The notes: a model not told the origin generated them from the letters alone. DNA of 32,116 bases from Bacteroidales bacterium (GCA_016936695.1 JAFGXK010000295.1:1-32116); one strand, 5' to 3'; positions 18,194 to 32,116 are shown, counted from the first letter of the stretch. Numbers and translations: made by a program.

Positions 18194-18223
18194 AACACCC
18201 TGCAGTTTTCACTGCAGGGTGTT
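18194..18223. terminator. Bidirectional rho-independent terminator
   Basis: A perfect 12-bp inverted repeat AACACCCTGCAG / CTGCAGGGTGTT has a 6-nt loop (TTTTCA). On plus it is followed by ATTTTTAT; on minus it is followed by TTTTAATTGT. It lies between the small plus-strand gene (ends 18170) and the DUF2202 gene (ends 18244 on minus) and serves both. Confidence 0.92.
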
Positions 18224-18243: not shown

Positions 18244-19005
18244 TCACCATCCATTTCTGTTACGGTTACCGAAGCGGCCATTGCCCTGCCCCTGAGCCCG
18301 GGAACCTCTGCCTGTTTCATTCGGCGAGCTGGTAATCTCGTCGTATTCTTCCTGAGTTATATATACTGGAGTATAGGTCGCTCCTATCCTCTCCAGCTGA
18401 CGGGTGAATGCCCTTAAATGGTTCCTGGAACCCCTGAGCAAATTTTCGAAAACCAAAAGGATATTCTCGTTGGAAGCCACACCAAGATACTCTTCAAGAT
18501 CTTTGATATCCATATCTTCTATCAGCGCGCCCGTTTTGAAAGCAGCTTCGATTGATTCAGAACCCTGCTCTACAAGTTCTCCGTACAATTCCTGAAAATC
18601 AGGATTTGTAAAAACACCCGGGTCGCCTGCCAGTTTGTATTCATCACCATAACTTTGCAGAAGCAATAATACCGCATTCATATGGGTTTCTTCAGCACTT
18701 GAAATATTTGAGAAAATCGGTGTTCCCCATTTTTCATATAAGGCGGCATAGACATCTCTTGCAAGTTTTTCTTCTTCTTTCATGTGCATAAGAATATCCA
18801 GCTCACCATCAGTGAAAGAAAGATCATCCGTTAAGCATGATCCAAGGCTGCTCTGAACCATTATGGTTGTTCCATCGGCTGCAACTTCGATAATACTATC
18901 GGTCATCAAGTCAGCCTGGCCATTATTGTCCTTTGTGCATGAATTCATTCCGAAAAGCAGGCTTGTCATAAAGCTGCCAAGAACTATAAACATTTTGAAT
19001 TTCAT
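18244..19005 (-). CDS. DUF2202 ferritin-like lipoprotein
   Basis: This 253-residue protein has a lipoprotein-like signal (FGMNSC, C23). Residues about 64-215 form the DUF2202 four-helix domain: KEEEKLARDVYAALYEKWG at 76-94 with E79, and SSAEETHMNAVLLLLQSYG at 102-120 with E106 and H108. Later, FENLLRGSRNHLRAF at 186-200 has E187 and H196, giving a plausible diiron or metal ligand set like rubrerythrin-type proteins. The C-terminal tail is Gly/Asn/Arg-rich (GRGSRAQGQGNGRFG), like the tail of the next gene. It is the last gene of the ECF sigma operon, 21 bp after the EF-hand protein, and ends at a strong terminator. Exact function is unknown. Confidence 0.85.
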   Translation of the reverse strand: MKFKMFIVLGSFMTSLLFGMNSCTKDNNGQADLMTDSIIEVAADGTTIMVQSSLGSCLTDDLSFTDGELDILMHMKEEEKLARDVYAALYEKWGTPIFSNISSAEETHMNAVLLLLQSYGDEYKLAGDPGVFTNPDFQELYGELVEQGSESIEAAFKTGALIEDMDIKDLEEYLGVASNENILLVFENLLRGSRNHLRAFTRQLERIGATYTPVYITQEEYDEITSSPNETGRGSRAQGQGNGRFGNRNRNGW

Positions 19006-19026
19006 AATTTCTGGGTTTTTAAGTTT

Positions 19027-19374
19027 TTACTTTTTATTGGTTGTTTCCCTATAGTCACAGATTCCGTTTTTATCAGCGTCGGCAAAGTTCCCGTTTCCGT
19101 TACCATTTCCCTGTCTCATGCCTCGCTGACCCTGTCCATTACCAAGACCATCGCCGGATCCTCTGCGATTGATCCCTTTTCTTCCGGTTTGCTGATTTCT
19201 TGCGTTACTATTCTCAAAGTTGTCGCAAACACCATCTTTATTGGCATCCACAAAAGCAGCAGTGGCGTTGCCTTTTCCGTTCATCGACCGTTGTCCCGCT
19301 CCCTGATTCTGAGCGCTTGCCATTGTTGTTATTGCCACCAGGGCAATTCCTGCGATAAAAAGTTTTGTTTTCAT
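19027..19374 (-). CDS. Small exported protein with two EF-hand-type calcium loops
   Basis: The start at 19374 gives 115 residues with a clean signal peptide (ends TTMASAQ); an ATG two codons earlier is also possible. Two 12-residue loops are exact EF-hand patterns. Loop 1 is D43-A-N-K-D47-G-V-C50-D51-N-F-E54, and loop 2 is D99-A-D-K-N103-G-I-C106-D107-Y-R-E110. Each has Asp at 1, Glu at 12 and Gly at 6, and each has Cys at position 8. The stretch between them is Gly/Asn/Gln-rich and probably disordered. It sits between the Spy-like and DUF2202 genes, suggesting a periplasmic metal- or calcium-binding partner. No full family is recognised. Confidence 0.8.
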   Translation of the reverse strand: MKTKLFIAGIALVAITTMASAQNQGAGQRSMNGKGNATAAFVDANKDGVCDNFENSNARNQQTGRKGINRRGSGDGLGNGQGQRGMRQGNGNGNGNFADADKNGICDYRETTNKK

Positions 19375-19400
19375 AATCATAAATTTTTCAAGTTTGATAA

Positions 19401-19955
19401 CTAATTAATAAATCGTCTTCCTCTTCCCCTTCCGGATGGACCACCGGGTTCGTGTTGTCCCGAATGAATATCCGTGGTAAACATCTCCGCGAATAATTGG
19501 TCGAGTCTTTCTGTCTGATCCTTGTTGCATATTTCCTTAAAATCCAGATAATACCTGTATGTCAGCTTTTTAAGATCAGCATGTAAATGTCCGACTGAAT
19601 CGGACAACAAATTCAGTTTTGATGAATCAACGATGGATGATGACATCTCTTCCAGCATTCTCCCTCTGATGTCATTGAGTTCAATATTGATATCCCTTAC
19701 ATGGTGCCTGAAATCAGGATTGAACTCCCTGAAACGGGCCATCTGTTCGTTGGTAAGGTTAAGCTGATCACGGAAATAACGGCCGCTGTACTCGAGGGAA
19801 GCCACTTCGTCCCCTATCGTGCCGGATTCCGGAACCGTTAATTCCAGCCTTTTAGGATTTCGGTTATAGACAACCGTGGCAACTGTGGCAATATTCAATA
19901 AGGCCAGTGCAATTATTGCCCAAATCATCCATCTGTTTCTGCTTTCAGGTTTCAT
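19401..19955 (-). CDS. Spy/CpxP-like periplasmic heavy-metal-sensor protein
   Basis: This 184-residue protein has an N-terminal membrane anchor (about 9-30, IWAIIALALLNIATVATVV). The rest is a helical hairpin with an LTxxQ-like motif (QLNLTNEQM, 64-72) and a charged helix (DFRHHVRDINIELNDIRGRM), as in Spy/CpxP/CnrX proteins. A His pair (HH) there could bind metal. The C-terminal tail is Gly/Arg-rich. Because it follows the anti-sigma gene by 10 bp, it likely acts as a periplasmic sensor or chaperone in the same system, as CnrX does next to CnrY/CnrH. The ligand is not evident. Confidence 0.82.
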   Translation of the reverse strand: MKPESRNRWMIWAIIALALLNIATVATVVYNRNPKRLELTVPESGTIGDEVASLEYSGRYFRDQLNLTNEQMARFREFNPDFRHHVRDINIELNDIRGRMLEEMSSSIVDSSKLNLLSDSVGHLHADLKKLTYRYYLDFKEICNKDQTERLDQLFAEMFTTDIHSGQHEPGGPSGRGRGRRFIN

Positions 19956-19965
19956 TGTCAGCCTC

Positions 19966-20391
19966 CTATTCTATTGAAAGAACATCCACTGATTCGAGAA
20001 CTGCATCATTTATAAGCGCCAGTTCAACCGGGATTTCGGCCGTATTTCCGGCTGGACGAGATAAATTACCTGCCAGAACACCCAGAAAGACAGCAGCTGC
20101 CATTGATGCTGCTATTAGTACCGGCCTGAGCATCCGGATAAATCCCGATTCACTTTCATGACCGGCAGTTTCGAGGGAAGCGATCCCTGCCATCACTCTT
20201 GTGACAAGAAAAGGATCCGTATCCGTATTCCTTTCCATTTCGACTACCCTGTCCGCCAGCAACAATACATTGTAGATTTGTTTACATGAATCACATGTTT
20301 TTAGATGTGACTCAACCTGATTCCTGATATCCGGGGACAATCTGCCCTCGTGATAAGCATCCAGATTTTTTTGACATAACTGACAATTCAT
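19966..20391 (-). CDS. Anti-sigma factor with zinc-finger (zf-HC2) domain
   Basis: This 141-residue protein begins with a zinc-anti-sigma domain: C3-x2-C6, then H29-x3-C33-x2-C36 (HLKTCDSC). A transmembrane helix at about 89-110 (PVLIAASMAAAVFLGVLAGN) follows, and a short periplasmic tail. It should bind the ECF sigma factor encoded 52 bp upstream and hold it at the membrane until a signal is received from outside. The Spy-like gene follows by 10 bp. Confidence 0.88.
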   Translation of the reverse strand: MNCQLCQKNLDAYHEGRLSPDIRNQVESHLKTCDSCKQIYNVLLLADRVVEMERNTDTDPFLVTRVMAGIASLETAGHESESGFIRMLRPVLIAASMAAAVFLGVLAGNLSRPAGNTAEIPVELALINDAVLESVDVLSIE

Positions 20392-20443
20392 TTTTGATTG
20401 GTTTTTATGATTAGAAACAAAACTTGACTTTTTCCTTCGTTCA

Positions 20444-21022
20444 TTACGGATTTTTCCCCCTTCCTGCCGATAATTTTCCCCTGAGATTCCTTTTAGCTCT
20501 CTGCAGAAGTGACTCTACGGCGCCTTCGCTAATATTCATTATCGCTGCAATCTCCTTTTGTGAAAGATCGTCGTACTTGCTAAGGATAATTGCAGTCCTT
20601 TGATTTTCGGGCAAAGAATCAAGAGCTTTCTGAACCCAGCTGATATGTTCCTTACGGACCAGGATGTCTTCAGGATTATCTGAATCAGCTAGTGATACAT
20701 GGATATCATTGGTTTTTTCAGAACCAAATAATGAATTGAATCTCTGAATTATGAAATTTTTCGATGATCTCCTGACACTATTGAGTGAAGCATTAACGGC
20801 AATCCGGTAAAGCCAGGTTGAAAAAGCTGAATCACTCCTGAACCGCGACAATGACTGATAAGCCTGAATAAATACTTCCTGGGTCAGGTCGTCAGCATCG
20901 TCTTTGTCATGGACAAATCCAATGCAGGTCCTGAACACCAGAGGTTGGTACTTTTCCACAAGCAACCTGAATTTCTCCCTGTCGCCATCAAGAATATCCC
21001 TGATTATTTCACTCTCATTCAT
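20444..21022 (-). CDS. ECF sigma factor (RNA polymerase sigma-70 family)
   Basis: The chosen start at 21022 gives 192 residues (MNESEIIRD...). Region 2 shows DDLTQEVFIQAYQSLSRF at 44-61, and region 4 shows LPENQRTAIILSKYDDLS followed by an HTH with IAAIMNISEGAVESLLQRA. Longer in-frame starts up to 21154 exist, but a promoter -7 element (TACATTTG at 21113-21120) falls inside that extension, so 21022 is better; 21037 (MHEGI) is also possible. It drives an envelope-stress regulon, probably including this operon. Transcription continues through anti-sigma, Spy-like, EF-hand and DUF2202 genes. Confidence 0.9.
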   Translation of the reverse strand: MNESEIIRDILDGDREKFRLLVEKYQPLVFRTCIGFVHDKDDADDLTQEVFIQAYQSLSRFRSDSAFSTWLYRIAVNASLNSVRRSSKNFIIQRFNSLFGSEKTNDIHVSLADSDNPEDILVRKEHISWVQKALDSLPENQRTAIILSKYDDLSQKEIAAIMNISEGAVESLLQRAKRNLRGKLSAGRGKNP

Positions 21023-21112
21023 TATTCCTTCATGCATCGAATTGAATCTCAATAAGGAAAGATAATATACCCACCCCAACTTAAAAATTTCTGTCCCTAA
21101 GTAAGTCCGCTG

Positions 21113-21120
21113 CAAATGTA
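21113..21120 (-). promoter_or_regulatory. Promoter -7 element of the ECF sigma operon
   Basis: TACATTTG on minus is a perfect match to the Bacteroidota -7 consensus TAnnTTTG. It lies 90 bp before the chosen start at 21022. No TTTG is found 19-21 nt upstream, so the -33 half is weak or the promoter uses another sigma, possibly the one encoded here. Confidence 0.5.
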
Positions 21121-21261
21121 AATATAATAATGAAATAAATCGCTTTAATATCACCCTTGGCTCCAGGATCGCGATTTTATTTGATTCTCGAGAAAACTTC
21201 GCCCGTTGTTATCCGCGTGGGTTAATCTCCGGGAAAAACTGCTTTGGTTGTTCCGGAAAAC

Positions 21262-22253: not shown

Positions 22254-22706
22254 TTACCTCCTCTTGTTTATAAGGTTAATAATCTCGTTTGACACAATTC
22301 TTACAAGGTAGGAAATATTTTCACCAAAGTCAATACTCACCGGCTGAATCCCCAGAATGTAGACTTCAGCGGTGAAAAAGTCCGCTATATTCTTAAGAGA
22401 TATATTATGAGTATTGAATGTAAGGTCCATCACCCTTTCAACTGGCAGAAGCACAGCGCTTCCGGGGGGGGAACCCGTGTTCATACAATCGATAAGGACC
22501 AGGATATCAGGGTTCAGGGAATTGATTTTGCCAATATAATTCTCGATGCTTACCTCCACCGTGAGCGTTCCGATATTGTCTCTCTCAACAATCCTGTTGC
22601 TTATATAAACTCCGGCACCGTCATCCTGCTTAAGGACATTCCCGATCCCGACAAAAAGGATCTTCCTGCCGGTTTGTGTCAGAATTTTCTCAAGGTCTTG
22701 CAGCAC
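22254..22706 (-). CDS. hycI: HycI-type [NiFe]-hydrogenase maturation endopeptidase
   Basis: This 150-residue protein has the M52-family fold: VGIGNVLKQDDGAGVYI at 19-35 with the Ni-sensing acidic pair D28/D29, DILVLIDCMN at 67-76 with D73, and NTHNIS at 98-103 with H100. These match the metal-binding residues of HycI/HybD proteases. The enzyme would trim the C-terminal tail of the hydrogenase large subunit after nickel insertion. Here the target is the gene at 29387-30589, which still carries a tail. It starts 5 bp after the 4Fe-4S subunit gene and is followed at 2 bp by the zinc-ribbon gene. Confidence 0.88.
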   Translation of the reverse strand: MLQDLEKILTQTGRKILFVGIGNVLKQDDGAGVYISNRIVERDNIGTLTVEVSIENYIGKINSLNPDILVLIDCMNTGSPPGSAVLLPVERVMDLTFNTHNISLKNIADFFTAEVYILGIQPVSIDFGENISYLVRIVSNEIINLINKRR

Positions 22707-22711
22707 TCCGT

Positions 22712-23320
22712 TCAGAGATATTTAACCAAAACTAGTCTCAGGCAGTTCGGGCAGAGTATATTGAACATGTCCTTTCTCTTCAGCCCGTCACGGACCTCTA
22801 TCTCAACATCCTGTCCTTCTGAAAGTTTCAGTTTTTCGTTCAGCATGTTGAGGTTCAGGATGGATGAAAATGCCTTAGGCCCCAGTTTCCTGTGAAGAAA
22901 CTGAAGATGTTCCCTGGTAGTGATAACAGCTCCGCAGTTCGAGCAGATAAGAAGTTCCTTTTCCTGGTATTCTACTACCTGTGTCCGGTCCAGGGTGGCC
23001 ATGTCGAAAATAAGGTCGGAGAGAACCACCCCCTTTCCTGTAATACAGTGCTCCTCGCATTGTCCGCAAAAAATGCATTTTCCGTAATCCCTCACTATAG
23101 TACGGATTCTCTTTTCGGGATCGTCGGTAAAAGTTATAGCCTGAGGCGGACAGACGTTTGCACAGGTTTCACATCCCACGCAGTTTTCGTTATCCACTAC
23201 CGGTTTACCCCTGAATTTCTCGAATGGAATATGTTCTTTAAAAGGGTATTTAGTGGTATAAGCCGGCGTAACGAGAGAAATAACGGCCTCCTTCAATTCT
23301 CTTAGCTTTGGATACTTCAT
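22712..23320 (-). CDS. 2x[4Fe-4S] hydrogenase subunit (MbhN/HycF/NuoI-like)
   Basis: This 202-residue protein has two ferredoxin motifs: C47-x2-C50-x2-C53-x3-C57 (CVGCETCANVCP) and C82-x2-C85-x2-C88-x3-C92. They place two [4Fe-4S] clusters on the electron path between ferredoxin and the catalytic site. A C-terminal extension contains two further pairs, C126/C129 (ICSNCG) and C190/C193 (LCPNC), forming a likely zinc or iron site as in HycF-type subunits. It overlaps mnhG by 4 bp (ATGA). The N-terminal 35 residues link to the membrane part as in NuoI. Confidence 0.9.
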   Translation of the reverse strand: MKYPKLRELKEAVISLVTPAYTTKYPFKEHIPFEKFRGKPVVDNENCVGCETCANVCPPQAITFTDDPEKRIRTIVRDYGKCIFCGQCEEHCITGKGVVLSDLIFDMATLDRTQVVEYQEKELLICSNCGAVITTREHLQFLHRKLGPKAFSSILNLNMLNEKLKLSEGQDVEIEVRDGLKRKDMFNILCPNCLRLVLVKYL

Positions 23321-23634
23321 TTTACAACATCCTTATAATCATCCATAATGCTCTTATCGCTCATTTTCACTCCAAAACGGTATGTACCCCGTACCAGGGC
23401 GTGTGCTGCAACCGTTGCACTGAAGAAGAGCAGGGGAATAGCAATAATTGCCTTAATGCCTGCCGCTGAAATCCCATTATGAAGGAATACTCCCAATAGT
23501 ATACTGCAGCATCCGAGTGTAACACATTTTGTTGCTGCCTGCAATCTGTTATAAACATCCGGAAGCCTTAATAATCCTATGCATCCGAACAGGTTAAACA
23601 GAACACCAATGCTTATTACTATTATAGCTGCCAT
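23317..23634 (-). CDS. mnhG: Mrp antiporter subunit G-like (MnhG/MbhC)
   Basis: This 105-residue membrane protein has three transmembrane segments and the MnhG pattern: LFNLFGCIGLLRLPDVYNRL, then QAATKCVTLGCCSILLG, then AIIAIPLLFFSATVAAHAL. In Mrp antiporters it is an accessory subunit; in Mbh hydrogenases it is MbhC, part of the sodium-translocating unit. It begins 1 bp after mnhF and overlaps the next gene by 4 bp. Confidence 0.93.
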   Translation of the reverse strand: MAAIIVISIGVLFNLFGCIGLLRLPDVYNRLQAATKCVTLGCCSILLGVFLHNGISAAGIKAIIAIPLLFFSATVAAHALVRGTYRFGVKMSDKSIMDDYKDVVK

Positions 23635-23635
23635 A

Positions 23636-23902
23636 TCATTGGTTTAATTGTTTACCGCTCAGGTATTTTGCCAGGGTCAGTGTGCCGATAAAACTCAGAA
23701 TTATCCATGCAATACCAATATCCAGTATAAAGCTTTTGCCGGTTTGAACTGAGATAATGGCACATATACCGACTACAAGAATGCCGAAAATATCAATGGC
23801 AACCATTCTGTCGGGTATCGTTGGGCCCCTTATGATCCTGTACAGACAGAGTCCGCTGAGGCCTATCTGGAAATACAGCAATATTTCAAGCCATGTGTTC
23901 AT
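23636..23902 (-). CDS. mnhF: Mrp antiporter subunit F-like (MnhF/MbhB)
   Basis: This 88-residue membrane protein has three helices, with the MnhF/PhaF segment RIIRGPTIPDRMVAID at 22-37 and a following helix that contains GILVVGICAIIS. It is the MbhB-type subunit of the hydrogenase ion-pumping arm. It overlaps mnhE by 4 bp (start inside the mnhE stop) and is followed at 1 bp by mnhG. Confidence 0.93.
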   Translation of the reverse strand: MNTWLEILLYFQIGLSGLCLYRIIRGPTIPDRMVAIDIFGILVVGICAIISVQTGKSFILDIGIAWIILSFIGTLTLAKYLSGKQLNQ

Positions 23903-24384
23903 TCAACAAAATTTTTAATATATTTTTCAAATACCCCGGTGATCATCCTGGTATATGTTTCGGGATCTTGTGAACGTATATAAATCCAGTGTATGTAATA
24001 GTCGTCTCCTATTATATCGACTGTAAGTGTTCCCGGAGTCATTGTGATTGAATTGGCAAGAAGCATCCTGGCAAATTCCGATTTAAGTGTGGTTCTGACT
24101 TTTACAATCCCCGGTTTTATAGGCATCCGGGGATGCAGTACCCTGTAGGCAACGTCAAAATTAGCCTTAATACACGACCAGATAAAGACTGACAGGTAGG
24201 CCAGGAACCAGAACCAGCGCCGTGGGTTGATCAGCTTGCCTGTATTTTCAAAAAAATACCTTGCAAAGATCAGGGTACAGATCAGTGATGCCGCTGATCC
24301 GACAATAACATTCTGCAGGGAAATCCTGAAGGTTAAAAGAAGCCAGAAAACAAGACCGAGTATAAAAAACGTCAGATATCTCAT
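23899..24384 (-). CDS. mnhE: Mrp antiporter subunit E-like (MnhE/MbhA)
   Basis: This 161-residue protein has two N-terminal hydrophobic segments, a short third, and a cytosolic domain. Family marks are IWSCIKANFDVAYRVLHP at 68-85 and NSITMTPGTLTVDI at 111-124. The subunit (MbhA) takes part in Na+ translocation in Mbh complexes. It starts 1 bp after mnhD and overlaps mnhF by 4 bp, consistent with one transcript and coupled translation. Confidence 0.93.
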   Translation of the reverse strand: MRYLTFFILGLVFWLLLTFRISLQNVIVGSAASLICTLIFARYFFENTGKLINPRRWFWFLAYLSVFIWSCIKANFDVAYRVLHPRMPIKPGIVKVRTTLKSEFARMLLANSITMTPGTLTVDIIGDDYYIHWIYIRSQDPETYTRMITGVFEKYIKNFVE

Positions 24385-24385
24385 A

Positions 24386-25924
24386 TCATATCTTTAATAT
24401 GGTTGAAGAGTACGTTTGAGGATCTGTCAGGACATTTATGGCAGGGGTCAGGAAAAGGTCGCGCACCTGCGGAATAGCGACAAGGCTCAAGATGACACAA
24501 AGAATACTTAGAACAACCATGCTGAAGACCATGGGAAACGGCACTTCCTTAAGGTTTTTTTGCTCTCCGTCCTGTTCCTTGTTATAAAAGGCATACCTCT
24601 GGAATTTAAGGAATGAGGCAAGGGTGATTATGCTTACAATAACGGCAATAAGAGCAAGAAGGTAAAACTTACCCATTACAGCCGCAATTATTATAATCAG
24701 CTTGCTGAAGAAGCCGTTGAAGGGTGGTATTCCGGAAATAGACATAGATGCAATGAATGAGGTCGCGGAGGTTGCCGGCATATACCGTGCAATCCCCCCC
24801 ATCTCCTTCAGATTCCGGGTCCCTGTCCTGTATTCAATGGCTCCGGCGTTAAGGAAAAGAAGACTCTTGAACGCTGCATGATTTATGAGATGAAAAATAC
24901 CTCCGGCAATTGCCAGAGATGCGATTTCAGGGTTTGTCCCCCTGGCAAGGAGTATCATCCCCATCCCGACTGATAGTATTACATAACCCATCTGACTTAT
25001 GCTGTGGTAAGCCAGCAGCCTCTTGATGTCCCACTGTCCGATAGCCAGGAAAACGCCGGTTACCATCGACAGGGCACCAAGGGTGGTAATCAGCACTGCA
25101 ATTTCATTGCTTATGAGGAACATGTTGAAGAAGATCCTTATCAGAACATAGATCCCGACGGCCTTTATCAACACACCCGAAAGCATGGCCGAGATCGGAG
25201 AGGGAGCTGATGAATGAGCATCGGGCAGCCATGCGTGAAATGGTATTACTGCGGCCTTCAGTCCGAATCCGCAGAGAAACAGAAGCTGGATAAGCATATA
25301 ATGCACCTTGTCGGGACTGCTTCCCATAGCAGCTTTGACATCCGCAATGTTGAGGGTTTTTGCCTTCCAGTAAATAAGTCCGATTCCAAACAAGATCAGC
25401 AATGAGGCCAGCCCTCCCAGCACCTGATATTTGAAAGTAGCTTCAAGCTGTTCCCTTTCAACTCCGAATGCGACGAGTGCATAGGAGGAGATCGCAGCAA
25501 TCTCGAGGAAAACAAAGATATTGAAGAGATCGCCGCTCAGAACAACACCGTTCATCCCTGCCACCATCAGACAGAAAAGGGCGTAATAATTACTCTCCGA
25601 TGTGTACCGGCTTATATAGGTGAGTGAATAAACTATTGAAAGAAAACCGACAATGTTGATAATACACAGTAAAAGTGCTGTGAAGTTGTCCATTACCATG
25701 TATATGCCTATTGGAATGCCGTTGACAGGTTCCCATCCCCCGACTTTATAGACTGAAATATCTCCCCTTGCGGTGGTTATTGCAATAAGGCTCATGGCTG
25801 CAAGCAGGAGCAGCACCAGAAGACCGATATACTTGTTGATGTTCTTCAGAAACCTGTCAAGGATCATTGTCAGGAAGGCTCCGGCAAGTGGTACTGCTAC
25901 AAACCAGGGGATCAGCGAATTCAT
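24386..25924 (-). CDS. mnhD: Large antiporter-like subunit (MnhD/MbhH)
   Basis: This 512-residue protein has about 14 transmembrane helices. Key ion-path residues of the ND2/ND4/ND5 family are present: E141 in VFLEIAAIS (TM5), K223 in GFGLKAAVIPFHAWLPD (TM7) and K254 in GVLIKAVGIY (TM8). It is the MnhD-like/MbhH-like subunit and one of two large antiporter subunits in the operon. It begins 2 bp after mnhC and is followed at 1 bp by mnhE. All residues needed for proton or ion movement look intact, unlike the other large subunit at 27529. Confidence 0.92.
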   Translation of the reverse strand: MNSLIPWFVAVPLAGAFLTMILDRFLKNINKYIGLLVLLLLAAMSLIAITTARGDISVYKVGGWEPVNGIPIGIYMVMDNFTALLLCIINIVGFLSIVYSLTYISRYTSESNYYALFCLMVAGMNGVVLSGDLFNIFVFLEIAAISSYALVAFGVEREQLEATFKYQVLGGLASLLILFGIGLIYWKAKTLNIADVKAAMGSSPDKVHYMLIQLLFLCGFGLKAAVIPFHAWLPDAHSSAPSPISAMLSGVLIKAVGIYVLIRIFFNMFLISNEIAVLITTLGALSMVTGVFLAIGQWDIKRLLAYHSISQMGYVILSVGMGMILLARGTNPEIASLAIAGGIFHLINHAAFKSLLFLNAGAIEYRTGTRNLKEMGGIARYMPATSATSFIASMSISGIPPFNGFFSKLIIIIAAVMGKFYLLALIAVIVSIITLASFLKFQRYAFYNKEQDGEQKNLKEVPFPMVFSMVVLSILCVILSLVAIPQVRDLFLTPAINVLTDPQTYSSTILKI

Positions 25925-25926
25925 TT

Positions 25927-26265
25927 TCAGCCTCTTAGATTATTAATTTCTCTGATATCAAGCGTCTTGTATTTCCTGTAAATCCTTATTATCACAGACA
26001 TCAGCATTGCGGTGGTGGCAAGACCAATCACAATGGCAGTAAGGACCATTGCCTGCGGCAGGGGATCGACATAGATAGCGTCAGGGCTGGCCGGATCAAC
26101 TATCGGTGCTTCACCATGATGGACATATCCTATCAATGCCAGAAAAAGGAAAACGCTGAACTCCATAACCGATAGTGAAATGACTATCTTGACAAGGTTT
26201 CTCCTGGTAATGACTCCATAAAGTCCGACCAGGAAAAGAATAAAGCAAAGAAGGTAAACTGTCAT
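25927..26265 (-). CDS. mnhC: Mrp antiporter subunit C-like (MnhC/NuoK/MbhG)
   Basis: This 112-residue protein has three transmembrane helices of the NuoK/MnhC type. The family marks are VISLSVMEFSVFLFLALIG, with the buried acidic residue E35, and DPLPQAMVLTAIVIGLATTA. It is MbhG in the Mbh complex. It overlaps mnhB by 4 bp and precedes mnhD by 2 bp. Confidence 0.93.
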   Translation of the reverse strand: MTVYLLCFILFLVGLYGVITRRNLVKIVISLSVMEFSVFLFLALIGYVHHGEAPIVDPASPDAIYVDPLPQAMVLTAIVIGLATTAMLMSVIIRIYRKYKTLDIREINNLRG

Positions 26266-26699
26266 TTTGTTATTTCTTCCTTAAATATTACCAGTGCCAG
26301 AAAAATTGTCAGTATCGAAGCCGCAACTTCAATCCCTACGCTTATATTGAAGAGAGGTATCACACCTGCGCTTATCAGTTCTCCGACTTTACCTGCCGGC
26401 AGCCAGTTATTGAAAAAGATCCTGGCTCCAAGAAGCATCCCTGCCAGGGCGATAATAAGAACAAAGAGTATCGCCAGATTCTCCGTTATAGTCGTGCCTG
26501 TTTCTTCCCTGGTCAGGTTTATGAACTCACTTCCATTTGCCAGGATAAGAAGGATGAATGAACCTGCAATTATAACACCTCCTGCAAAGCCCCCTCCCGG
26601 GGAAAGATGTCCATGGATTATCACATATATACCGTAAAGAAATACTATGCCAGCTATAAGCTGGGTCGTCTTCTTTACTATGATTGTCATTCCTTTCAT
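26262..26699 (-). CDS. mnhB: Mrp antiporter subunit B-like (MnhB/MbhF)
   Basis: This 145-residue protein has four transmembrane helices, with the MnhB signature HGHLSPGGGFAGGVIIAGSF at 29-48. It is MbhF in the Mbh complex. It overlaps mnhC by 4 bp. Upstream it is separated by a 252-bp repeat-filled gap from the MbhDE gene, the largest break in the operon. Confidence 0.93.
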   Translation of the reverse strand: MKGMTIIVKKTTQLIAGIVFLYGIYVIIHGHLSPGGGFAGGVIIAGSFILLILANGSEFINLTREETGTTITENLAILFVLIIALAGMLLGARIFFNNWLPAGKVGELISAGVIPLFNISVGIEVAASILTIFLALVIFKEEITK

Positions 26700-26750
26700 T
26701 GGAACTCAGTTTTTCTCCGTTTTACTATCAGTTTTCTTCGGTCTTAAAAG

Positions 26751-26966
26751 AACCCACCCCTACCCCTCCCGGGAGGGGATCCTTATTGTTCCTGCCCTAT
26801 GCTCTGTGCCCTGTGCTTTTCTTTCTCACTCTCACTCTGTTTTAACCCATCCCTACCCCTCCCGGGAGGGGATCCGTATTGTTCCTGCCCTGTGCTCTGT
26901 GCCCTGTGCTTTTCTTTCTCGCTCTCACTCTCACTCTGTTTTAACCCACCCCTACTCCTCCCTGGA
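26751..26966 (-). repeat. 93/99-bp tandem repeat with 16-bp palindromes
   Basis: Three copies start at 26751, 26844 and 26943 (the last is partial). Each has AACCCA(C/T)CCCTACCCCTCCC..., and copies 1 and 2 carry the perfect palindrome CCCCTCCCGGGAGGGG (26763-26778 and 26856-26871). This is followed by about 60 bp rich in CCCTGTGCTCTGTG and CTCACT. Copy 2 has one extra CTCACT-type hexamer, hence 99 versus 93 bp. Copy 3 overlaps the 3' end of the MbhDE gene and supplies its last codons and stop. It fills the gap between MbhDE and mnhB. Confidence 0.85.
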
Positions 26967-27515
26967 GAGGATTCGTCCGGGCTTATCTTCCTTCTTTCCC
27001 TTTAATCTCAGTATCGTCAGCACTCCCAGAACCGCAGTGATCAGGACAGTAGCCTCGCCGAGAGTATCGAAACCCCTGAAGTCAAATATTACTCCGGTTA
27101 CGAGATTTGCACTGCCGGTCTTCTCCGCGGCGCCGGAAATATAATACTCAGACATCCTGAGCGATCCTTCACCGAAAGCATCGAGCGATCTTGTTGCAAG
27201 GCTCAGGAAATAAAAGATCACGCCAACTATCAGTATTGCTGTTGCCATTGTCACATATCCCTGCCTGTCAGATTTAGTGTATGGTTCCTCCCGTGTACTG
27301 TCGATTACCACTGCCACCATTAAGACCAGGGAAATTGTTTCCACGACAATCTGGACTATTGCCAGGTCGGGAGCTTTCAGCAGCAGGAAGCAGATAACAA
27401 GGCCGTATCCCACAATACCGCAGGCAATTACTGCCGAAAGCAGGTCTTTTGCATGAATTGCAAAGATGGCCCCGAGGATCATAAAGACAAGAATTACTGA
27501 AACAGCTGCTTCCAT
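26952..27515 (-). CDS. Fused MbhD-MbhE-like subunit (MnhA C-terminal type)
   Basis: This 187-residue membrane protein joins two parts. About 1-70 is a DUF4040/MbhD segment ([15 protein letters not shown], then [20 protein letters not shown], residues 42-65). About 75-175 is an MbhE-like region, with [19 protein letters not shown] at 137-155. In Pyrococcus these are separate genes; in Mrp operons they are the end of MnhA. The last residues PGRILSREE are encoded by the adjacent repeat, which also gives the stop. It begins 13 bp after the large antiporter gene. It links the hydrogenase arm with the Mrp arm. Confidence 0.85.
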
Positions 27516-27528
27516 AGGGTAATCTTAA

Positions 27529-29382
27529 TTATATCATAATCAATAACATAATGATTAATCCGGCAAATATCCAGATAATATAGCCCGACAGAACTCCGGT
27601 GTGAGCCAGACTCAACCGGTGACTGGACCATAACACTATTCCCTTTGACAGGTCATAGATGTCAAACCATTTCTCCCTGGCTCTGTTGTAAACAGCTGAC
27701 AGGAATCTGAATTCAGTAAATGTCTTGTAAAATTCAGGTGTCGGATAACCCGCAAGATCATGGAACTTTTCTCCGCCGATAAAACTGTCTGAAGTCCTGA
27801 ATTTTTTAATGTCAGATGCGAGATAGATAATTATCCCGGCCACAATTGACAACAGAACCATTACCGAAACCATCCCGGAATTCCAGTAACCTGAAAACTC
27901 GAACTCACCGGTTACCGGCATGAATAGCTTCGGTACTACCTGGTTTGTCGCAAAGACACCCAGTAAAATACAGAAAAGTGCAAGCAGGGCAACCGGGATC
28001 CACATAGCCCAGGGCACCTCCTTTACATCCGCCAGCTCTGCCCTGCGCCTGCTGAGGAAAACGCCGCCGATAAACTTGATGAAACTGGCCAGTGTAAGTG
28101 CGGATCCGAATACTGCTAGTCCAAGCCATATCACCCATAGTTTGTTCGGTATGCCTGGCTCTCCTCCAAAATCAATAATCGCCTGGTAAATCATCCACTT
28201 GGATGCAAATCCGTTCAGGGGAGGGATCCCCGATATCGACATTGCGAAGATGAGAGCGGCAATAAATGTTACGGGCATAGCCTTTGACAATCCCCCCAGG
28301 TCGTCTATTTCACTAAGGCCTGTACGGTGTTCTATTGAACCGGCAGACAGGAACAGACCGCTCTTATAGATTGCATGGTTGACCATATGGAACAATCCTG
28401 CGGCGATGCCAATCACTGATCCCAGACTCAGTCCGAGTATCATGTATCCGACCTGAGATACGGCATGATATCCGAGCAGCTTTTTATAGTTATGCTGAAT
28501 CAGGGCCATCATCACCGCTGTTATGATGGTTGTTACGGCGATCAGGAGTAAGATTAGAGTCATCCATTCGCCAGTGATAAACATTCCGTTGATGATCCTG
28601 GCCAGGAAGTATATACCAAGGAGCTTATCGAGTGAGGCCGGCAGGAATGCAGAAGATGAAGCCGGAGCATCCTTTGCATAATCCGGCACCCAGGTATGGA
28701 AGGGGAAGGCTCCTGCCTTTGTGAAACTTCCCGCAAGAAGAGCCAGGAAGGCGGTAACGGTAAGAGCATTCCCGGTTGAAAGGGAAATTTCGCTCATATT
28801 AAGGGTTCCCGTGATCTTCCAGACGATTGCAATCCCGATAATCATTATGCTGTCGGAGGCTCCTATCATAATAAGAGTTTTCTTGGCTGTTGCCGAGCTC
28901 TCTTCATCACTGCCCTGGATAAGCTTGTAAAGGGTTATACCCAGTATTCCCCAGAATGCAAGGAAAAGAAGAAGATTATCGGCCAGCACGGCACCATAGG
29001 AACAACCCATTGTAACAAGGATCCAGGAATAGTAGTTCCTTATCCTCTTCCCCTTCATGTATACTATTGAATACAGAAGTATCAAAATGGAGAAGAGACT
29101 GATGAACATAAGAACCAGCCTGCTCAGGTTATCAATTCTGAGCGTAAGATACCTGCCAATGTTCCAGAGCTCAGGCATAAACATCTGCGCATCTGATGTA
29201 TAAATTCCGGCTGTCAGTACTCCTGCAGTCACAGCTGCAGCGAGAGCAAGGATCCCTTTGGCAAGGGAAGCCTTATCCGGAATAATGAACAGGATGATCC
29301 CGGCAATAATCGTTATCAGAATTGCGGATTCAAGGTTCGCCATCACGGCATTATTGGATATGAGGTCTATAAATTCCTTCAT
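27529..29382 (-). CDS. Second large antiporter-like subunit (NuoL/MnhA/MbxH'-like)
   Basis: This 617-residue protein has 14-16 transmembrane helices of the ND5 type. K222 in FTKAGAFPFHTWVPD (TM7) and K253 in LDKLLGIYFLARI (TM8) are present. The TM5 glutamate normally found in FWE(L/I)xSLxSY is replaced by glycine: FWGILGITLY (G145). This suggests that its ion channel is altered or inactive, or that it serves a structural role. The C-terminal part has a longer soluble piece (about 530-590) and a last helix. It starts 4 bp after the large hydrogenase subunit gene. Confidence 0.9.
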   Translation of the reverse strand: MKEFIDLISNNAVMANLESAILITIIAGIILFIIPDKASLAKGILALAAAVTAGVLTAGIYTSDAQMFMPELWNIGRYLTLRIDNLSRLVLMFISLFSILILLYSIVYMKGKRIRNYYSWILVTMGCSYGAVLADNLLLFLAFWGILGITLYKLIQGSDEESSATAKKTLIMIGASDSIMIIGIAIVWKITGTLNMSEISLSTGNALTVTAFLALLAGSFTKAGAFPFHTWVPDYAKDAPASSSAFLPASLDKLLGIYFLARIINGMFITGEWMTLILLLIAVTTIITAVMMALIQHNYKKLLGYHAVSQVGYMILGLSLGSVIGIAAGLFHMVNHAIYKSGLFLSAGSIEHRTGLSEIDDLGGLSKAMPVTFIAALIFAMSISGIPPLNGFASKWMIYQAIIDFGGEPGIPNKLWVIWLGLAVFGSALTLASFIKFIGGVFLSRRRAELADVKEVPWAMWIPVALLALFCILLGVFATNQVVPKLFMPVTGEFEFSGYWNSGMVSVMVLLSIVAGIIIYLASDIKKFRTSDSFIGGEKFHDLAGYPTPEFYKTFTEFRFLSAVYNRAREKWFDIYDLSKGIVLWSSHRLSLAHTGVLSGYIIWIFAGLIIMLLIMI

Positions 29383-29386
29383 TTCG

Positions 29387-30589
29387 CTATCCTTGTGGTT
29401 TTCTGAGCTGTTTGGTAAGGCTGACCGACATTTCTATCAATTCTTTTGCATTGTGGATTTTTAAACCCGTTTCCGTATCGTAGGCTGCAGCAAGCCTTTC
29501 CGTGCAGCAGTAGCATGGATCAACTGCAGCAAGTGTTATGGTTGCATCGGAGATAGTCTGTCCGATACATGATTTTTTGAACGTGGCGATGTTCACATAG
29601 CTCGGAGCCCTTATTTTATGCCTTAACGGAGAATTGGAACCATCTGAGAATACACAATGGAACACCTCTCCCCTTGGAGCTTCGGCTCTGCCTGTACCAA
29701 TTCCTTCGGGTATCTCCTTAACCTTTACGGAAATGTCACCTTCCTTTTCATTTTTGATCTTTTCAAGACATTGCTCAATGATCGAGACTGATTCAAACAT
29801 TTCCAGAAGTCTCACTTCCGTTTTGGCAAATACATCACCGGTATCTGCAGTAATCACCTTCCAGTTCACGAGCGGATACGCGGCGTACGGATCATCCCTC
29901 CTGATGTCGATTGCCAGCCCGGAGGCTCTTGCCGTCGGACCGACGGCGCCATAATCGATCACATCCTGTTTTGTAAGGACTCCCACTCCCTTGGTTCTTA
30001 AGTGTATAACCGGGTCATCCATTACTGCACCTGTAAGAAGTGAAAGCTTCTTTTTTAAATCCGACATTGCCTTAAGAATCACCGGTATCTTTGATTCTTC
30101 AATATCACGTCTTACCCCTCCGACCTTGAACATCGCATAGCTGTTCCTGTTACCCGTGATCATCTCGAACAGATCGAGGACAGGCTCACGGTATTTCCAT
30201 GCCCACATGAACACAGTGTTGTAGCCCAGGAAGTGTCCTGCCAGTCCAAGCCAGAGCAGATGACTGTGAATACGTTCAAGTTCGCCAATTATACTTCTTA
30301 TGTATTTGGTCCTGTCTGTTATATCAATCCTGCATATTTCCTCAACTGCATTGGCAAAGGCAAAGGGATGGGATGTCGAACAGATCCCGCAGATCCTTTC
30401 AACCAGAAAAAATACCTGGTCGTAGGTCTTCGATTCAGCAAGTTTTTCAATACCCCGGTGGTTGTAGCCGGTTTCCCATTTTATATCCTTAACAATTTCA
30501 CCGTCACAATAAAGCTTGAAAAGCTCAGGCTCTTCCTGGAGCGGGTGATACGGACCAATGGGTATGAAAAATTTCTTGCTCATGATCAT
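29387..30589 (-). CDS. Group 4 [NiFe]-hydrogenase large subunit (MbhL/EchE/NuoD-like)
   Basis: This 400-residue protein has the NuoD/HycE fold. The Ni-Fe site cysteines are complete: C67 and C70 in RICGICS, and C359 and C362 in DPCYCCTER. Residues 366-400 form a tail after CTER that matches the usual HycI cleavage point (after R365). A complete set of four cysteines separates this protein from NuoD of complex I and from sulfane reductase (Mbx), which lack some of them. It starts 2 bp after the NuoC-like gene and is followed at 4 bp by the large antiporter gene. The catalytic reaction is expected to be 2H+ + 2e- = H2 with reduced ferredoxin. Confidence 0.93.
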   Translation of the reverse strand: MIMSKKFFIPIGPYHPLQEEPELFKLYCDGEIVKDIKWETGYNHRGIEKLAESKTYDQVFFLVERICGICSTSHPFAFANAVEEICRIDITDRTKYIRSIIGELERIHSHLLWLGLAGHFLGYNTVFMWAWKYREPVLDLFEMITGNRNSYAMFKVGGVRRDIEESKIPVILKAMSDLKKKLSLLTGAVMDDPVIHLRTKGVGVLTKQDVIDYGAVGPTARASGLAIDIRRDDPYAAYPLVNWKVITADTGDVFAKTEVRLLEMFESVSIIEQCLEKIKNEKEGDISVKVKEIPEGIGTGRAEAPRGEVFHCVFSDGSNSPLRHKIRAPSYVNIATFKKSCIGQTISDATITLAAVDPCYCCTERLAAAYDTETGLKIHNAKELIEMSVSLTKQLRKPQG

Positions 30590-30591
30590 TT

Positions 30592-31041
30592 TTATTTGAA
30601 CTCTTTTCTATAAGGATAAACTCCCTCTGCCCAGTTGCCTTCGGAGATTAGTTTCTCCTGGTTTGGATGGTTAAGGAAATCGATCCCGAAAAGCTCATGC
30701 ATCTCCCTTTCTATCCAGTTGGAGGCGTTGAACATATTTGAAAGTGATTCTATTTGCGGTTTGTCTGATTTGAGAATAACGTGGATGTTAAGCACAAGTC
30801 CGATCTCATCCTTGCTGAAATGATAGTGAATCTCGAATCCTTTCCTGGTATGGATTGCGGAAGCTATTATAAACCTGAGCCCGGCCTCCCTGTAAAGATG
30901 ATCTGCAACCTTCAGGAGGGCATCGGGTTCTATCATGACCGACCATCTTGTGTCGCTCCTCTTCTCGGTTTCAAGAACATCACTCCCGAGCTTAACCTTT
31001 ATTTCTTCTATGATTGCTTCACTGTTCATCATGTCCGTCAT
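30592..31041 (-). CDS. NuoC-like (MbhK/30-kDa) hydrogenase subunit
   Basis: The chosen start at 31041 gives about 149 residues (MTDMMNSEAIIEEIKVKLG). A longer frame to 31182 would be translated from the 14-bp repeat (Gly/Lys/Arg/Ala-rich) and from the end of the next gene, so it is rejected. The family mark is WIEREMHELFGIDFLNHP near residue 110-128, the NuoC (complex I 30 kDa) motif. It makes the bridge between the large subunit and the membrane arm. It ends 2 bp before the large-subunit start. Confidence 0.9.
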   Translation of the reverse strand: MTDMMNSEAIIEEIKVKLGSDVLETEKRSDTRWSVMIEPDALLKVADHLYREAGLRFIIASAIHTRKGFEIHYHFSKDEIGLVLNIHVILKSDKPQIESLSNMFNASNWIEREMHELFGIDFLNHPNQEKLISEGNWAEGVYPYRKEFK

Positions 31042-31070
31042 TTCATTTTCCTTATACTTCAAACCTTTTG

Positions 31071-31114
31071 CCCTTGCCCTTCGCCCCTTGCCCTTCGCCC
31101 CTTGCCCTTCGCCC
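31071..31114 (-). repeat. 14-bp tandem repeat with G-runs on the mRNA strand
   Basis: The unit GCCCTTCGCCCCTT (plus strand) occurs at 31076-31089 and 31090-31103 and continues at 31104-31114, with a further CCCTT to the left. The transcript strand reads GGGCGAAGGGCAAGGGGCGAAGG... with seven runs of three or more G spaced by 3-4 nt. It lies 30 bp before the NuoC-like start and 8 bp after the stop of the NuoB-like gene. Confidence 0.85.
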
Positions 31115-31121
31115 TGCGCCT

Positions 31122-31535
31122 TCATTTGCTCTTCACCAGCGCCATAATGCCTGCTATTATTGCTTCCGGCTTGGGAGGGCATCCCGGTATGTATGCATCC
31201 ACAGGAATTATTTTATCGACAGGCCCTGCGAAAGTATTTCCCTCGGCGAAAATGCCGCCGGTACAACCACAAGCGCCGATGGCAACAACCAGTATCGGCT
31301 TCGAAGCCTGGTGATAGATCTCCAGCAGCCGCTCCTTGTCACGTCTGTTAATTGATCCGTTTACCAGGAGCACATCGGCATGCCTGACGCTGCCGACCAG
31401 CAGAATACCGAACCTTTCAAGATCATACCGTGGTGTGAGGCAGTCGAGTATTTCAATATCGCAATTGTTGCATGAAGCTCCTCCGAAATGGAAGACCCAT
31501 AATGATTTTTTGAAGCAAAAACTTTTAAAGCCCAC
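31122..31535 (-). CDS. NuoB-like small subunit of group 4 hydrogenase (MbhJ), GTG start
   Basis: The coding region begins at the GTG at 31535 (VGFKSFCFKKSLWVF), giving 137 residues. The longer frame to 31703 overlaps the NuoH-like gene and has no family likeness there; no ATG is available between them. Family marks are C22/C25 (ASCNNCDIEILD), C89 (GACGC) and C119 (IPGCPPKPEAI), which hold the proximal [4Fe-4S] cluster next to the Ni-Fe site. The following gene is NuoC-like after an 80-bp gap with a repeat. The upstream gene ends 11 bp before this start. Confidence 0.88.
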   Translation of the reverse strand: MGFKSFCFKKSLWVFHFGGASCNNCDIEILDCLTPRYDLERFGILLVGSVRHADVLLVNGSINRRDKERLLEIYHQASKPILVVAIGACGCTGGIFAEGNTFAGPVDKIIPVDAYIPGCPPKPEAIIAGIMALVKSK

Positions 31536-31546
31536 GGTTTTATCTG

Positions 31547-32116
31547 TTATAAGCCAAAAAATGCAAGAACTATAGCAACAATTGCAATAAGATTCATCCA
31601 TATCATGAAGAAACTTATTGCCTGCCTGATCTTGATCCTCGGATTCGTGTTCCGGATCAGTGTCAGCAGGAGCACAACACCTGCTACTTTGAGAAAAGCC
31701 CACAGGATGTTTATCCCGCGGAGGTTAAAGCCTTTCATCAGTAATGCAACAAGGAAGCAGGGCAGGACAAGGAGCATTATATATTTCGTGAGTTTGATAA
31801 GTGCATAGGGCGGACCCGAATACTCAATGAATGAACCTTCTGACAGCTCGGTCTCTGCTTCAGCCATATCGAAGGGGACAAGGCCAAGTTTTGCCTGGAT
31901 GCAGAATATGCCAGCAATGAAAAGCAGGATTCCCGAGATGCTTCCTATGAATGGTGCTCCATCCTTCTGCAACTGTATAATGGAATAGAGGTCAAAATTC
32001 TGTGAAGCTTTTACAATTATGCCGGCGACAACCAGAAAGAAGGTAAGCTCATAACTCAGAATCAGTTTCATTTCCCTCGAAGCTCCCACCGAAGCAAGAG
32101 GGTTTCCTGATGCCAC
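31547..32116 (-). CDS. NuoH/MbhM-like membrane subunit (5' part missing)
   Basis: Only the C-terminal 189 residues are visible; the start lies beyond the right edge. The visible part has about six transmembrane helices and the NuoH/EchB/MbhM motifs: ASVGASREMKLILSYE near the left, then VPFDMAEAETELSEGSF with the conserved acid-rich loop that leads protons or ions toward the catalytic part. It anchors the NuoB/NuoD-like module in the membrane. The gene ends 11 bp before the GTG start of the NuoB-like gene. The operon promoter and any further 5' genes are outside this window. Confidence 0.9.
   Translation of the reverse strand: MASGNPLASVGASREMKLILSYELTFFLVVAGIIVKASQNFDLYSIIQLQKDGAPFIGSISGILLFIAGIFCIQAKLGLVPFDMAEAETELSEGSFIEYSGPPYALIKLTKYIMLLVLPCFLVALLMKGFNLRGINILWAFLKVAGVVLLLTLIRNTNPRIKIRQAISFFMIWMNLIAIVAIVLAFFGL

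Follow-up and report, generated by a model that had tools for sequence, protein, structure and literature searches.

Envelope ECF circuits with CnrX-like sensors are best known from Cupriavidus. In CnrYXH of Cupriavidus metallidurans, as in the NccX systems, an ECF sigma factor, a membrane anti-sigma factor and an anchored periplasmic helical sensor are encoded in one operon. The release of CnrH by Co(II) or Ni(II) in CnrYXH has been described (PMC7689651). The Bacteroidales locus presented here has the same three components in one operon; however, their order is sigma–anti-sigma–sensor rather than the Y-X-H of cnr, and the cargo is a secreted EF-loop microprotein and not an RND pump.

The locus lies in a 32,116-nt stretch of DNA (hereafter, the window), which forms a single contig of a 3.15-Mb assembly that is fragmented and 89% complete. 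The nearest named record is the Bacteroidales MAG UBA8908, with a DUF2202 identity of 65%. On the minus strand, from 21022 to 18244, five ORFs follow one another in the 5'→3' order ECF sigma factor, zf-HC2 anti-sigma factor, Spy-like protein, EF-loop microprotein and DUF2202 protein. The features are as follows:

21023..21261, minus strand: upstream intergenic region, the expected site of the operon promoter (motif comparison with shuffles)
20444..21022, minus strand: ECF sigma factor, 192 aa (Pfam Sigma70_r2 and r4_2; orthologue in 14/15 modules)
19966..20391, minus strand: anti-sigma factor, zf-HC2/ZAS (Pfam zf-HC2; motif and TM segment in homologues)
19401..19955, minus strand: membrane-anchored Spy/CnrX-fold putative sensor with an RG-rich tail (Pfam Metal_resist; Foldseek)
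19027..19380, minus strand: secreted EF-loop microprotein, 117 aa (sequence, family alignment, loop statistics)
18244..19005, minus strand: DUF2202 putative lipoprotein (Pfam DUF2202; MJ0754 homology; conserved residues)
18194..18223, minus strand: Rho-independent terminator, 13-bp stem and U-run (folding energy compared with shuffles)

The initial annotation had described five minus-strand genes spaced by 10–52 bp and closed by a strong terminator, and all of this was confirmed: the five ORFs were recovered at the same coordinates, the intergenic gaps are 52, 10, 20 and 21 bp along the operon, and the stem at 18223–18194 folds at −29 kcal/mol versus a shuffled mean of −9.2 (z = −7.6). The data support the interpretation of these genes as a single operon-like unit organised as a transmembrane ECF circuit. 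Immediately before the sigma gene of the window, no match to a sigma-70-like promoter was detected. A search for a shared ECF promoter motif revealed no excess over shuffles of motif pairs upstream of the module sigma genes and standalone EF genes, and in a MAFFT alignment of the upstream regions the gene start was the sole conserved part. No Rfam elements were found at 15–24 kb of the window. All three exported products (18244–19005, 19027–19380 and 19401–19955) have G/R/Q/N-rich low-complexity tails or linkers, as do the fourth-slot proteins of related modules. Upstream of the operon, at 22254–32116 on the minus strand, a membrane-bound hydrogenase/Mrp-antiporter-like cluster can be noted from ORFs read by eye.

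The sigma factor gene, read from the ATG at 21022, encodes 192 aa; a longer GTG frame begins at 21154. The protein matches Sigma70_r2 (1.5e-20) and r4_2 (3.5e-19). The anti-sigma factor had been called a membrane zinc protein, and this description holds: it matches the zf-HC2 profile (3.2e-8), its sequence contains the zinc-binding motif H29-x3-C33-x2-C36, and one TM segment is predicted at about 90–108, followed by a periplasmic tail of 33 residues. The H-x3-C-x2-C motif and one predicted TM segment are present in all 22 anti-sigma homologues scored, with tails of 31–47 residues. The short periplasmic tail is a further likeness to CnrYXH, whereas the zf-HC2 motif is absent from the CnrY sequence. 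In two related modules (L034 and L035), a Crp/Fnr-family regulator gene ends 31 bp before the sigma gene start, and the module may be co-transcribed with it.

The third protein consists of an N-terminal membrane anchor and a helical-hairpin domain matching Metal_resist (PF13801, 1e-7). A plasmid search with this protein gave no match. Since phmmer against the PDB returned only weak matches, a fold comparison was needed. The AlphaFold model was built from a shallow alignment of two sequences (the window and L021 only) and has a pLDDT of 64.5. In the Foldseek search of the PDB, the top matches were CnrX (2y39, 3epv, 2y3b) and NccX (4clv), followed by CpxP, ZraP and Spy; the best, CnrX 2y39, had a probability of 1.00, a TM-score by target of 0.82 and an rmsd of 2.0 Å. 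The fold E-values are 0.02 and up, with 0.02–0.1 for the top matches to CnrX and NccX, and weight was placed on the consistent ranking, not on the E-value. The Spy/CpxP/ZraP LTxxQ proteins are of the same fold class and appear among the fold matches of this Metal_resist protein; unlike them, the Spy-like protein is membrane-anchored and stands beside a sigma/anti-sigma pair instead of serving a two-component system.

The CnrX sequence of pMOL28 was used for the residue comparison. The CnrX ligands H42, H46, E63, H119 and M123 align with G58, R62, N79, Y135 and F139 of the Spy-like protein, so that none of the five metal ligands is kept, albeit in a weak alignment (fold-match identity of about 12%). 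The positions of Y135 and F139 appear fairly secure, being flanked on both sides by LTxxQ-like stretches. Because all five CnrX ligands are replaced, sensing of Co/Ni is not supported. However, Y135 is invariant and N79 nearly invariant in the family alignment, and for this reason the CnrX-type site may have been repurposed. For the periplasmic Spy/CnrX-like sensor proposed earlier, the likeness to CnrX and NccX in fold is borne out, and the protein is membrane-anchored, whereas metal sensing by the CnrX mechanism is not supported. The unit is built like CnrYXH, yet judging by the residues it would not be filed as a Co/Ni CnrX member.

The recurrence of the locus was analysed in 117 genomes of the family, which were searched with a DUF2202 profile and with Spy-like and EF alignments; the loci of relatives were fetched and then annotated with profiles built in this analysis. 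Fifteen modules with a close Spy-like protein were detected in 14 genomes. The anti-sigma gene, preceding the Spy-like gene, and the anchored Spy-like protein are present in all 15, and the sigma gene in 14 (it is missing from L135). The EF microprotein gene directly follows the Spy-like gene in 12 of the 15 modules (the window, L035, L041, L132, L135, L136, L137, L138, L139, L141, L142 and L143). L133 and L034 have no EF gene after the Spy-like gene, and in L134 an EF gene is found some 1.4 kb off, at the edge of the contig. Only three modules contain DUF2202 (the window, L035 and L034), and in L034 it comes directly after the Spy-like gene, without an intervening EF gene. In view of these neighbourhood counts (EF in 12/15, DUF2202 in 3/15), the conserved unit is sigma/anti-sigma/CnrX-fold sensor/EF microprotein, not the EF/DUF2202 pairing, and DUF2202 is a passenger. 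In the co-occurrence check proposed in the initial annotation, DUF2202 was thus found with the anti-sigma gene in three of the 15 modules; the first four genes are conserved in order in many relatives.

A looser three-gene core of sigma, anti-sigma and Spy-like genes recurs across the class. Related families often have, at the position following the Spy-like gene, a gene for a second secreted protein that is soluble and has an RG-rich tail; one of these proteins shows weak LTXXQ/Metal_resist matches. Genes adjoining the modules include those for an ABC-3 permease, an outer-membrane efflux protein and a thioredoxin reductase fusion. The Peptococcaceae UBA2264 record (L022, DDXI01000119.1) appears to contain the operon of the Bacteroidales record L021, with equal scores, which is probably due to contamination of the Peptococcaceae MAG.

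The EF microprotein starts at the ATG at 19380 or 19374 and comprises a signal peptide, two D-x-[ND]-x-[DN]-G-x-C-D-x-x-E loops and a G/R/Q/N-rich linker. Each of the 12-residue loops (DANKDGVCDNFE and DADKNGICDYRE) conforms to the canonical EF pattern and has Cys as its eighth residue. No accepted Pfam family was found for the protein; the best match, EF-hand_1, has an E-value of 0.18 and 11.9 bits, compared with a cut-off of 25.4. The family alignment contains 31 members and thus 62 loops, and all members have a signal-peptide-like start, two loops and the G/R/Q/N-rich linker. Canonical EF loops carry a hydrophobic residue at position 8, whereas Cys occupies this position in 60 of the 62 loops here. 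Both loops contain it in 29 of the 31 proteins, and 23 of those 29 have no other Cys. Among the loops from the window's genus and its ECF modules, 38/40 retain Glu12 (24/24 of the ECF-module loops themselves), compared with 8/22 in a sister genus, where it is lost in 14/22; Fisher's test gives p = 9e-7, which is only indicative since the sequences are related. In the ECF-module copies, the calcium-loop ligands at positions 1, 3, 5, 9 and 12 are kept nearly throughout, and these copies may still bind calcium.

A small calcium-loop protein had been proposed for this gene. The two EF-type loops, with the twelve-residue pattern D-x-[ND]-x-[DN]-G-x-x-D-x-x-E of EF-hand calcium loops, agree with that description, but the match to the Pfam EF-hand profile stays below the cut-off. 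The calcium reading appears doubtful, because the branch of the family adjacent to CopA genes retains Cys8 but has lost the calcium ligand Glu12, which is thus dispensable there. More distant relatives in the phylum (L242–L252) have a single Cys loop plus GxCDGTGP at the C-terminus; several of them are paired with a small protein bearing cysteine-free DxDGDGxND loops and with another secreted protein gene. Secreted proteins with QTQ/QNQ-type repeats are encoded next to the EF microprotein genes in L041, L142, L145 and L146. A search of the available papers found none on a cysteine EF-loop copper protein.

The CopA-adjacent branch belongs to the sister genus (g14). In 12 of the 12 two-loop loci fetched from it (L152–L162 and L124), the EF gene is located outside an ECF module, directly downstream (about 115 bp) of a CopA-type P-type ATPase gene. 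The three ATPases tested against the Cu-translocating TIGR01511 profile all scored above the cut-off, and the YN and MxxSS signatures of Cu+ pumps were found in all ten full-length copies. Weaker second EF copies such as L151 do not adjoin CopA. The link to CopA was observed within one genus, so the 12 cases cannot count as independent, and the EF copies involved lie outside the ECF module. A more distant EF gene, from a different family (G475), has DUF2202 and a CusA/CzcA pump as neighbours.

A palindrome close to TGAACATATGTTCA is present upstream of several standalone EF genes, including that of contig C168 of the window's own genome, and also precedes DUF134 and DUF5320 genes. Perfect or close sites are located at G000:C168:3495 (L149/L225), at 4193 in L140, 5171 in L147 and 5638 in L150, and in L227–L241. 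The perfect TGAACATATGTTCA palindrome occurs at 23 sites in 16 of the 62 genus genomes, while the reversed control occurs at none. It is present in 11 of the 15 genus genomes with EF and in five of the 47 without it (Fisher p = 8e-6, only indicative since the genomes are related). The sites look like a DUF134 regulon, and the DUF134 protein may bind TGAACATATGTTCA.

Taken as a whole, the locus is probably a sigma-induced envelope metal or redox response with a two-cysteine EF effector, run by a CnrYXH-like ECF circuit; which metal and which chemistry are involved we infer. The zinc-binding domain of the anti-sigma factor would hold the sigma factor at the inner membrane, and the Spy-like CnrX-fold protein in the periplasm would be coupled to the anti-sigma factor, probably via the short periplasmic tail of the latter. 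Envelope stress would free the sigma factor, a thiol- or metal-type insult such as copper being the most likely inducer. The freed sigma factor would then transcribe its own operon and so increase the amount of the secreted EF-loop microprotein, which, in the envelope, may buffer or clasp metal ions or form a disulfide that depends on metal or redox state. In the window and two related genomes, the DUF2202 ferritin-like lipoprotein may serve as an accessory metal or oxidant handler. The sensing and sequestering of metals or oxidants had already been proposed for this operon. The metal or redox theme stands only indirectly, through the neighbours found in relatives: CopA, CusA/CzcA, ABC-3 permease, thioredoxin reductase and DUF134.

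A general envelope-folding stress unit would account for the same genes differently: the Spy-like protein would be a chaperone or misfolding sensor of the Spy/CpxP type, the sigma factor would answer protein damage, and the EF protein would be calcium-stabilised, with no transition-metal role. The missing CnrX ligands, the presence of CpxP, Spy and ZraP among the fold matches and the second soluble RG-tailed protein often found after the Spy-like gene in related families are consistent with this, as is the retention in every ECF-module EF loop of Glu12, which is needed for calcium binding. However, it leaves unexplained why EF genes directly follow a Cu+ ATPase in every two-loop sister-genus locus fetched, why others lie behind a palindrome common to DUF134 genes, and why Cys8 outlasts Glu12 in the CopA-adjacent branch. 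We consider it rather unlikely.

The DUF2202 putative lipoprotein has a lipobox-like Cys23 and an MJ0754-type domain at residues 68–227, and its Pfam match is strong (6e-54, 182.6 bits versus a cut-off of 22). Its AlphaFold model, from a two-sequence alignment, was poor (pLDDT 31.5), and sequence homology to MJ0754 was used instead: the E-value against the PDB entries 3q4n/3q4o is about 5e-52 over residues 65–233. The protein thus resembles the MJ0754/DUF2202 family (3q4n, 3q4o, 3q4q, 3q4r) very closely and shares its conserved E/H/D residues; unlike MJ0754, it is a putative lipoprotein that is extended at the N-terminus, has an RG/Q/N-rich tail and is encoded inside an ECF operon. E77, E78, E79, E105, H108, E163 and H196 are conserved in 34–35 of 35 sequences and would be compatible with a ferritin-like metal site. 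The same search of available papers found none on DUF2202 or MJ0754, and the PDB codes led to unrelated papers only.

The conserved acidic and His residues and the MJ0754 homology would suit a system devoted to sensing and sequestering metals, with the EF-hand protein and DUF2202 working as one functional pair; the window and L035 have these genes side by side, and in G475, from a different family, they adjoin each other and a CusA/CzcA pump. As a core pair they were nevertheless rejected by the neighbourhood counts. DUF2202 is missing from 12 of the 15 modules, and one of the three that have it, L034, lacks EF. Most DUF2202 genes of the family and class are located outside such modules: about 30 further loci have no ECF module of this kind, and among them only G475 has an EF gene beside DUF2202. 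Elsewhere, DUF2202 was found near CusA/CzcA pumps (L060, L071), cytochrome c (L068) and, as judged by eye, other redox genes. On the FastTree phylogeny, the DUF2202 proteins of the window, L035 and L034 group together, and DUF2202 was probably acquired once as a passenger of the module. The pairing is therefore improbable as a system. A chance run of unrelated co-directional genes, for which the failure to find a shared promoter motif might speak, is refuted by the order of the first four genes, which is maintained in many genomes at Spy-like identities of about 47–66%, and by the gaps of 10–52 bp with a single terminator at the end, and can be given virtually no credence.

Within the sigma-induced metal or redox response, a bolder but less probable proposal about the effector can be made: the EF microprotein would not be a calcium protein and would found a family of secreted proteins with two cysteines and the core [DN]-G-[VI]-C-D, acting as metal buffers or as metal-gated disulfide clasps and attached to three control points, namely the CnrX-type ECF circuit, the CopA gene and the DUF134 regulator on the TGAACATATGTTCA operator. 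What is new here is the two-cysteine microprotein, together with the repeated location of its gene at metal-related control points. This uncultured Bacteroidota lineage has a version of the envelope ECF circuit without the CnrX metal site, the main cargo of which is an uncharacterised two-cysteine microprotein. The placement of EF genes beside the Cu+ ATPase genes of the sister genus leads to a concrete prediction: the microprotein would carry out Cys8-dependent copper or thiol chemistry.
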